From an uncultured Actinomycetes bacterium (GTDB taxonomy: Bacteria > Actinomycetota > Coriobacteriia > Coriobacteriales > Atopobiaceae): a stretch of 41,086 bases of DNA. The notes under the pieces are model-generated. The model saw nothing but the letters and a program-made list of their open reading frames with translations. It searched no databases and was not told the origin of the DNA. Positions 24,382 to 26,779 of this stretch are shown piece after piece. A program made the position numbers and the translations under genes. Every line of letters begins with the position of its first letter. The first letter of the stretch is position 1. Location: NCBI GenBank assembly GCA_900313905.1, contig OMTG01000138.1, forward strand, positions 1-41,086. Reading direction: 5' to 3'.

Positions 24382-25779
24382 CTACTCCGTATGGATCGAG
24401 TCGACCTCGATGAACTTCGTCTTGCCTGGCTCGAAGACGAGCGGCACCGTGCCGACCGGGCCTGAACGGTTCTTCGCGATGATGAAGTTCGTGATGTTCT
24501 TGTCGGGACGGTCGTCGCGCTCGGCCTCCTCGTCTGTCATCGAGCGGTCGAGAAGGATGACGATATCGGCGTCCTGCTCGATAGCGCCGGACTCGCGCAG
24601 GTCGGAGAGCTGCGGGGTCTTGCCGGTGCGGGATTCGACCTGGCGGGAGAGCTGGGAGAGCGCCACGACCGGCACGCCCAGGTCCTTTGCCATGATCTTG
24701 ATGCCTCGCGACATCTCGGAGACCTCGGTCGCACGGCTGTCCGACCTCCTGCCGCCGGAAGGCGGCGACACGAGCTGCAGGTAGTCGAGGATGACGAGGC
24801 AGTTCTGCCCCTTGCCATGGAGCATGCGCCTCGCCTTGGCGCGCACCTCCGTCACGGTCGTGCCCGGCGTGTCGTCGACCATCATGTCGAGCCTCGAGAG
24901 GTCGATCGTCGCGTCGAGGAGCAGCTTCCACTGGTTGTCGCGGATATTGGCGGCACGGATGTCCTGCAGGCTCACCCCCGACTGGGCAGCGAGCAGGCGC
25001 TGGGCAATCTCGGCCTTGCTCATCTCGAGCGAGAAGAAGGCGACGGTCGCGCCCTTCGCAGCAGCATTCACTGCGAGGTTCAGGGCGAACGATGTCTTGC
25101 CGACGCCTGGGCGGGCGCCGATGACGATCATCTGGCCAGGACGCAGGCCCAGCAGCTGCCTGTCGATGCCTGGGAACCCGGTCTGGACACCGAGGAACTT
25201 CTTGTCCTGTCCCGCCATGTCCGCAAGCTCGCTGTAGAGGTCCTGCATCACGCTCTCGATGGTGGAGTAGTCGCTCTTGATGTCAGAATCGGTGGCGTTG
25301 AGGATGAGCTTCTCGGCCTGGTCGACGACTTCCTTCGTATCCTCTGGTGCATCGTAGGCAAGCGCGGTCACCTGCGTGGAGGCCGTGATGATCTTGCGCA
25401 GGGTCGAATCGCGGCGCAGAATCTCCGCATGATGGCGCCAGCTGGCGAGCGCGAAGCTGTTCCCGTTGAGCTCGAGCAGATAGGTGCTGCCTCCTGCACG
25501 GGAAAGCTCGCCCTCCGACTTCAGGTAATCGGCAAGCGAGATCGGATCGACCGGCTGTCCACGGTCGAAGAGGGTGCGCATCGCCATATAGATCGTGCGG
25601 TTCGACGGCACGTAGAAATCGTCAGGCGAAAGCTCCGTGAGGGCTTCCTGGAGGACATCGGCGGAAAGCAGCATCGCCGACAGCACCGAAGCCTCGGCTG
25701 CCGAATCCTGCGGCATCACCGCATCGGCAGGAGGCGTCGTAGGCATATCGCGGCGCTCGCGCTTCTCATGCTCTGGCAT
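24382..25779 (-). CDS. dnaB: Replicative DNA helicase
   Basis: 465 aa RecA-fold hexameric helicase that unwinds the fork. N-terminal primase-binding domain (EASVLSAMLLSADVLQEA, about 30-130), linker, Walker A ARPGVGKTSF (about 212-221), FFSLEMSKAEIAQRLLA, Walker B LVILDYLQLV, and the C-terminal SRQVESRTGKTPQLSDLRES and DADIVILLDR motifs. No intein is present. ATG 25777-25779 with GGGGA 4 nt upstream. Downstream of rplI but separated by a terminator and a long, repeat-bearing leader. Confidence 0.97.
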   Translation of the reverse strand: MPEHEKRERRDMPTTPPADAVMPQDSAAEASVLSAMLLSADVLQEALTELSPDDFYVPSNRTIYMAMRTLFDRGQPVDPISLADYLKSEGELSRAGGSTYLLELNGNSFALASWRHHAEILRRDSTLRKIITASTQVTALAYDAPEDTKEVVDQAEKLILNATDSDIKSDYSTIESVMQDLYSELADMAGQDKKFLGVQTGFPGIDRQLLGLRPGQMIVIGARPGVGKTSFALNLAVNAAAKGATVAFFSLEMSKAEIAQRLLAAQSGVSLQDIRAANIRDNQWKLLLDATIDLSRLDMMVDDTPGTTVTEVRAKARRMLHGKGQNCLVILDYLQLVSPPSGGRRSDSRATEVSEMSRGIKIMAKDLGVPVVALSQLSRQVESRTGKTPQLSDLRESGAIEQDADIVILLDRSMTDEEAERDDRPDKNITNFIIAKNRSGPVGTVPLVFEPGKTKFIEVDSIHTE

Positions 25780-26110
25780 ACAGTCCCCTTTCTCTTTCCC
25801 TAATCAGATGCACTAACAGGCTGCCCTGTCAAGCTCCACCCTCAGAGGCCCATCCCAAGGAGCAGGGAGGGGCCGGTGCGCCGGTGGTGAAAGTTCCTTC
25901 GCCGTGACCTTGCGATTCGCAGGTTTTCGACGTTTTCGACATTTTGTTCGATGCTGCATGGAGCAGTTTTCGACATATCGAACAAGCGTACCTTCCTGCA
26001 CGTCAGAGGCCATTTTGAACGCCCACGGAAAAAACTATGTATGCCCCGACCTGCGCTTTTCCGCATTTCCGCAGGTAGATGCCTTACAAATTATTCTCTC
26101 GGAAGAGCAG
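25780..26110 (-). promoter_or_regulatory. dnaB upstream region with GTTTTCGAC repeats
   Basis: Gene-free 330 bp. GTTTTCGAC occurs three times on the plus strand: 25923-25931 and 25932-25940 in direct tandem, and 25966-25974. A perfect 9-bp inverted pair TTGTTCGAT (25944-25952) / ATCGAACAA (25977-25985) interlocks with them, and TTCGA-CATA-TCGAA forms a dyad at 25970-25983. The repeats sit 145-205 bp upstream of dnaB. No protein family fits the open frames here, and no -10/-35 could be assigned with confidence. Confidence 0.55.
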
Positions 26111-26146
26111 AAAGCCCTCCTTGGAACACATGGTCCCAAGGAGGGC
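26111..26146 (-). terminator. Terminator after rplI
   Basis: 11-bp stem GCCCTCCTTGG (26114-26124) / CCAAGGAGGGC (26136-26146), followed leftward by TTTCT. It lies about 110 bp past the rplI stop; nothing else was recognised in that gap. Confidence 0.85.
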
Positions 26147-26254
26147 GCTCAGTCGCTGTGCATACAAGGTCTTGTGGCCTCAGTCTTCAGCCTGCATATT
26201 TGTCGAAATCCCCCAGCTTTCACCAGAGGTCCCGCGCAGGCGGAAGAAGATGCC

Positions 26255-26779
26255 TTAGGCCTCTGCCGGAGCCTCGGCTGCATCCTCTGCAGGAGCGGCC
26301 TCCTCGGCTGCCTCAGGAGCAGCCTCCTCAGGCTCGACATCGCCGACGAGCACGTTGAGCTCGGCGTTGATCTCGCGGTAGAGGTTGATGGTGACCTGGT
26401 GGCGGCCGACGGTCTTGATGGCGGCAGCGTGCTCGACACGCTTGCGGTCGATCTCGACGCCGAGCTCTGCCTTCAGGGCATCAGCGATCATGGTCGTGGT
26501 GACAGAGCCGAAGAGCTGGCCGTCGTCGCCGATCTTTGCATCGACCTTGACGCTCTTGCCGTCGATCTGAGCCTTGAGGGCCTCGGCGTTTGCGATACGC
26601 TCAGCCTCGCGCTTCTCGATGTTGTGGCGGCGCTCCTCGAGCTGCTTGATATTGCCAGGGGTAGCCGGCTGGGCGATACGGTTCGGGAACAGGTAGTTCT
26701 CTGCGTAGCCCTGTGCGACGTCGACGATATCGCCTTCGCCGCCCTTGCCCCTGAGCTCACCCAAAAGGATGACTTTCAT
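26255..26779 (-). CDS. rplI: 50S ribosomal protein L9
   Basis: 174 aa. MKVILLGELRGKGGEGDIVDV and YAENYLFPNRIA are the L9 N-domain that binds 23S rRNA; then the long connecting helix and C-domain. It ends with about 25 extra Ala/Glu/Pro residues not found in the usual 148-residue L9, a tail common in actinobacterial forms. ATG 26777-26779 with AAGGAG upstream. Last gene of the rpsF-ssb-rpsR-DUF2232-rplI set. Confidence 0.96.
   Translation of the reverse strand: MKVILLGELRGKGGEGDIVDVAQGYAENYLFPNRIAQPATPGNIKQLEERRHNIEKREAERIANAEALKAQIDGKSVKVDAKIGDDGQLFGSVTTTMIADALKAELGVEIDRKRVEHAAAIKTVGRHQVTINLYREINAELNVLVGDVEPEEAAPEAAEEAAPAEDAAEAPAEA

Follow-up and report, generated by a model that had tools for sequence, protein, structure and literature searches.

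According to excerpts of PMC7738170, DnaA of Mycobacterium tuberculosis binds upstream of dnaB in vitro, DnaA of M. smegmatis is found at the homologous dnaB region in vivo, a DnaA mutant with less binding before dnaB under-expresses this gene, and Caulobacter is consistent with these data. DnaA sites at dnaB are, as such, already known. In E. coli, the region before nrdD is bound by DnaA, which prefers boxes separated by 2-3 bp (PMC11317965, in excerpt). In B. subtilis, six box clusters act mainly together on initiation timing, as described in excerpts of PMC5295017. The region before dnaB was analysed in an uncultured Atopobiaceae bacterium (contig OMTG01000138.1 of assembly GCA_900313905.1; the whole stretch of 41,086 nt is referred to as the window). 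As in the two mycobacteria, DnaA sites, here predicted, are located at the origin and upstream of dnaA and dnaB of an actinobacterium (excerpts of PMC7738170). The mycobacterial box YWRTCCACA, quoted in an excerpt of PMC5043019, has C at position 6, whereas C6 is nearly absent from the dnaB module of Atopobiaceae, which, unlike that of Mycobacterium in the excerpts, also shows a regular box pair spaced by 34 or 35 bp and an accessory CGCAGGT motif. The E. coli DnaA regulon likewise has boxes upstream of dnaA and nrdD and the 2-bp spacing observed here at nrdD; however, its box is TTATCCACA, and the 16 regions listed in the excerpt of PMC11317965 include no dnaB site, whereas the present cluster lies at dnaB, its boxes being separated by 0 and 25 bp. 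B. subtilis likewise has box clusters away from its origin (PMC5295017, in excerpt), but its box is spelled TTATnCACA (excerpt of PMC11511705), unlike in Atopobiaceae, and an effect of its clusters on timing is described, whereas the cluster reported here is a predicted one.

The cluster occupies 63 bp of a 475-bp gap between rplI and dnaB, both encoded on the minus strand, and the gene order by Pfam is DUF2232 protein, rplI, dnaB, and adenylosuccinate synthetase (Table 1). A re-read of the sequence placed the three plus-strand copies of GTTTTCGAC (starts 25923, 25932, and 25966) and the inverted pair at the positions given in the original prediction. Its description of a gene-free stretch before dnaB is correct, although the rplI terminator lies inside the same gap. 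The boxes sit 145-196 bp before the dnaB start codon. The original prediction knew of no matching motif; however, the 9-mer is most likely a variant DnaA box, TTTTC[G/A/T]ACA, in which position 6 departs from the canonical base and which would be the Atopobiaceae spelling replacing TTATCCACA. Compared with the pattern TTWTNCACA, all three copies carry G instead of C at position 6; the two TTTTCGACA copies fit it everywhere else (positions 1-5 and 7-9), and TTTTCGACG has a further mismatch at position 9. The usual DnaA-box search with this pattern would miss nearly all dnaA and dnaB sites of Atopobiaceae. The 63-bp cluster is read as a probable group of DnaA-binding sites before dnaB, at which DnaA would bind and regulate this gene.

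Table 1. Features of the dnaB locus, with positions in the window.
Feature	Position	Strand	Basis
dnaB, replicative DNA helicase, presumed regulated gene	24382..25779	-	Pfam DnaB_C 1.6e-89; DnaB N-terminal domain 5.8e-27
Variant DnaA box (candidate) TTTTCGACG, directly abuts next box	25924..25932	+	Sequence; aligns with relatives' tandem TGTTGAAAACGTTGAAAA
Variant DnaA box (candidate) TTTTCGACA	25933..25941	+	Sequence; box position conserved
TTGTTCGAT, inverted pair left arm; possible weak DnaA box	25944..25952	+	Sequence; resembles TTGTTCTACA upstream of dnaA; inference
Variant DnaA box (candidate) TTTTCGACA, start-to-start 34 bp from preceding box	25967..25975	+	Sequence; spacing common in relatives
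ATCGAACAA (as read on +), inverted pair right arm; possible weak DnaA box	25977..25985	-	Sequence; inference
ACCTGCG / CGCAGGT inverted pair, contains the module's conserved accessory motif	26049..26076	.	Sequence
Intrinsic-terminator-like hairpin after rplI	26114..26146	-	Terminator scan
ATTTCGACA, box-like portion of conserved upstream block GGGGATTTC[AGT]ACAA	26201..26209	-	Motif listing; alignment block
rplI	26255-26779	-	Pfam

Dinucleotide shuffling of the gap yielded some 9-mer in three copies in 7 of 5000 sequences, whereas perfect 9-bp inverted pairs spanning no more than 63 bp arose in 336 of 5000. The threefold 9-mer thus stands out, and the inverted pair, taken by itself, does not. 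The frequency of the inverted pair speaks for chance repeats in AT-richer intergenic DNA. The perfect inverted repeat is not conserved in the alignment of relatives, and its arms may represent two weaker box-like sites. A LexA-type site was considered at the right arm and set aside, because the conserved part is the box.

The original prediction proposed a genome-wide motif count and a comparison with related genomes as checks. The 2,783,739-bp genome contains five copies of GTTTTCGAC (reversed control, six), of which three are in the cluster, one (C150:20874-20882) precedes the likely dnaA start by about 30 bp, and one is inside a predicted gene on contig C161; with four of five exact copies at dnaB or dnaA, the distribution is not random. 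The relaxed form GTTTTCNAC occurs 21 times, and its reversed control 23 times. Since the total count is not enriched over the reversed control, the unusual feature is placement: seven of the 21 sites are located at dnaB (three), upstream of dnaA (two), between dnaA and dnaN (one), and upstream of nrdD (one). The other 14 lie outside the dnaB, dnaA, and nrdD regions; eight of them are GTTTTCCAC, and two of the remaining six fall within predicted genes, as called by a crude gene caller. At a rate of 21 sites per 2,783,739 bp, the Poisson probability of at least three sites in 475 bp is about 8e-9, or about 4e-5 over all such windows.

A DNA search using the gap itself gave weak matches in only two genomes besides its own among 40, and the comparison was, therefore, anchored on dnaB. 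It comprised 88 rows (80 fetched dnaB loci, 7 from further genomes, and the window), two of which, L071 and L097, share an equal box pattern and are probably one genome entered twice. Gaps were measured up to the first matched dnaB residue, and some include a few codons. A long gap, defined as at least 380 bp, was present in 68 of the 88 rows, including the window; of the other 20, 16 have short gaps, two are truncated where their contig ends (L056 and L057), and two were left unoriented by the script (L100 and L101). The box TTTTCNACA was found in all 68 long gaps, with at least two copies in 54, and was absent from all 18 gaps of 100-380 bp, the two contig-cut loci included. Outside this count, L100 has two boxes upstream of dnaB. 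The exact tandem form occurs in 35 of the 68 long rplI-dnaB gaps, and successive boxes of the same orientation are 34 or 35 bp apart in 40 of 52 pairs in the relatives, as in the window. In L001-L080, 120 boxes were counted in 34,066 bp of long gaps versus 3 in 515,651 bp elsewhere, while the reversed motif gave 5 and 3, respectively. This conservation, set against five reversed motifs in 34 kb, refutes chance for the boxes and leaves accidental repeats a practically negligible explanation. Placement and conservation both support the suggestion, made in the original prediction, of a multi-site regulator-binding region before dnaB.

The box-bearing module is kept across the family Atopobiaceae, with at least three losses. 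On the DnaB tree, which was rooted at its midpoint for drawing, the long or short gap label requires three changes among 83 labelled rows, which suggests that the module is ancestral and has undergone at least three losses. It is absent from a genome of the same genus (G002), from L003, and from a rumen clade of 14 labelled rows; the module is dispensable, as the same-genus genome and the rumen clade do without it. These separate losses, at least three in number, offer natural comparisons. The same-genus genome (L095 / G002:C1, upstream of 84195) has no module before dnaB and keeps boxes at dnaA; its dnaA and dnaB are on opposite strands, about 66 kb apart.

Boxes of the same type were found at dnaA and in the dnaA-dnaN gap. 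A box is present within 250 bp upstream of dnaA in 40 of 42 Atopobiaceae rows, which contain three pairs of identical sequence. The dnaA-dnaN gap measures 219-298 bp in 37 of 38 rows, the exception being L110 (G014:C1:512019-513433), where dnaA is split over two frames in the assembly. This gap contains TTTTCNACA-form boxes, AT-rich DNA, and repeats of TAGTAGTAATA, which we take to be "DnaA-trio"-like. By script, a box was located about four bases before the trio-like TTATTACTACTA in 36 of the 42 rows and never had C at position 6 (G in 14, T in 11, A in 11); in the genome studied, the origin box is TATTCGACA. The label "DnaA-trio" is used in excerpts of PMC8235120. In other families, the trio-adjacent box, read by eye in eight of nine rows, has C in six (L114, L206, L207, L208, L211, and L218), T in one (L209), and A in one (L210). 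The difference between Atopobiaceae and other families at C6 gave a Fisher P of 4e-6, although the comparison sets one clade against all others and so counts as a single evolutionary contrast. Among sites of the form TTWTCNACA, position 6 is A95 G28 T7 C1 in the Atopobiaceae dnaB modules, A37 G14 T6 C0 upstream of dnaA, and G12 T11 A6 C6 between dnaA and dnaN. From these C6 counts, canonical boxes survive mainly in the origin.

Many boxes in relatives, and a length conserved at about 450-500 bp in the majority of them, had suggested that replication starts at the module itself, either as a full origin at dnaB or as the second part of a bipartite one. The dnaB origin was rejected by gene-strand polarity, which, at 10-kb resolution, flips at dnaA and not at dnaB in all three complete relatives sampled, each with one main chromosomal contig (G014, G018, and G022), so that the dnaB cluster is not the main origin. 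The polarity is noisy in single 10-kb bins, with local exceptions, and GC skew was too weak for use alone. In these three genomes, dnaB lies about 20-31 kb from dnaA on one arm. Moreover, no polarity switch surrounds the cluster within the window, the boxes, trio-like repeats, and AT-rich DNA of the dnaA-dnaN gap point to an origin there, and a module lost at least three times would hardly be one. An origin function at dnaB is thus highly improbable.

A further reading is a titration role. By this account, the cluster would mainly titrate or remodel DnaA, as do the B. subtilis clusters or E. coli datA/DARS, with dnaB a mere neighbour and with the early duplication of an origin-near cluster lowering free DnaA. 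The cluster is indeed outside the origin, and in the six Atopobiaceae genomes with both genes on one contig, dnaB and dnaA are separated by about 18-67 kb. Published excerpts report that B. subtilis initiates early when its clusters away from the origin are removed (PMC5295017) and that, in E. coli, box density is higher close to the origin (PMC12371093). However, the module stays before dnaB across Atopobiaceae with a regular layout, and boxes also occur at dnaA and nrdD, which indicates gene control. Titration as the main role is, therefore, considered unlikely; the two functions are compatible, and DnaA titration may accompany the regulation of dnaB.

The cognate DnaA was examined at residues that contact the box, D433, H434, and T435 among them (listed in excerpts of PMC7561715 and PMC5043019). 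Atopobiaceae DnaA has S or T in place of D433, keeps H434, and has A in place of T435 in 40 of 42 rows (two were unparsed), and so departs from the canonical D433, H434, and T435, whereas DnaA of other families has D433, H434, and T/S435 in nine of nine rows. An excerpt of PMC8235120 assigns D433 to box position 7, and the D433 change alone does not, therefore, explain the change at position 6. We infer that the residue changes and the position 6 change are linked. The departure of position 6 from the DnaA consensus and the unrelated conserved CGCAGGT that accompanies the boxes might instead point to a different transcription factor, with a TTTTCNACA-like site, controlling dnaB, dnaA, and nrdD. 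However, the trio-like repeats between dnaA and dnaN come immediately after a box of this kind, and the family with these boxes also has an altered DnaA recognition helix; both observations make such a factor very doubtful and argue for DnaA.

The nrdD gene was identified by Pfam (NRDD, 2.3e-83). Upstream of it, the arrangement TTTTCTACA-gg-TTGTCGACA-ggc-AATCGACAT adjoins CAATATCTTGTG, which we take to resemble an NrdR site, and the boxes show 2-bp spacing. An ACCTGCG starts 17 nt before the start of the first nrdD box. The stretch L229:1485-1560 (G000:C28, about 24484-24560), upstream of nrdD and beside an NrdR-like site, has DnaA-like boxes lined up 2-3 bp apart. The composite nrdD pattern occurred 11 times in 10 of 30 genomes (reversed control, 0), and nine of these occurrences preceded the nrdD match by about 160-250 bp; one of the other two lay elsewhere (G069:C6), and the genome of the last (G053) was outside the nrdD comparison. 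Among 25 nrdD upstream regions, TTTTCNACA was present in 8 and TTNTCNACA in 17, and 8 had no listed site, so that the link to nrdD is weaker than that to dnaB. The CGCAGGT motif was found in 60 of 68 long dnaB gaps and in 12 of the 25 nrdD upstream regions; the long gaps hold 111 occurrences in 36.6 kb, compared with 204 in 514.9 kb of other sequence.

Taken further, these observations allow a tentative reading, which we rate as possible rather than probable, in which Atopobiaceae recoded initiator recognition. DnaA would have lost D433 and T435, the sites at the origin, dnaA, dnaB, and nrdD would have shifted together from TTATCCACA towards TTTTC[A/G/T]ACA, and a partner protein reading CGCAGGT would join DnaA at dnaB and nrdD, coordinating helicase and nucleotide supply. 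In the open-licence literature, outside which most subscription journals lie, no description of the variant box, the DnaA residue pair, or the CGCAGGT partner motif was found. If confirmed, the system would provide a natural example of joint change in an initiator and its sites, would give a testable prediction as to which amino acids read the central part of the box, and would add a second actinobacterial lineage in which the helicase gene is tied to the initiator.

At dnaB itself, the three clear boxes TTTTCGAC[A/G], and perhaps two weaker ones, would be bound by DnaA, which would tune dnaB transcription from a promoter lying between the cluster and dnaB, and helicase supply would thereby follow the DnaA cycle. 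Activation, or at least DnaA-dependent tuning, is the preferred direction, in view of the dnaB under-expression in the mycobacterial DnaA mutant (excerpt of PMC7738170). As in a double-box promoter, at least two conserved boxes lie upstream in most long gaps (54/68), whereas the spacing of 2-3 bp between paired boxes is not observed at dnaB. With a terminator-like hairpin behind rplI, dnaB is probably transcribed from a promoter of its own. An RNA element in the gap was rejected, since no Rfam family reached the gathering score, the one sub-threshold match being on the terminator hairpin. The search for a sigma-70 consensus promoter found none within 25700-26350. A TTGACA is present on the minus strand at 25827-25832, between the boxes and dnaB; the 9-mer CCCTTGACA occurs in 20 of the 68 long gaps, and TTGACA / CCCTTGACA is perhaps the -35 element of the dnaB promoter.
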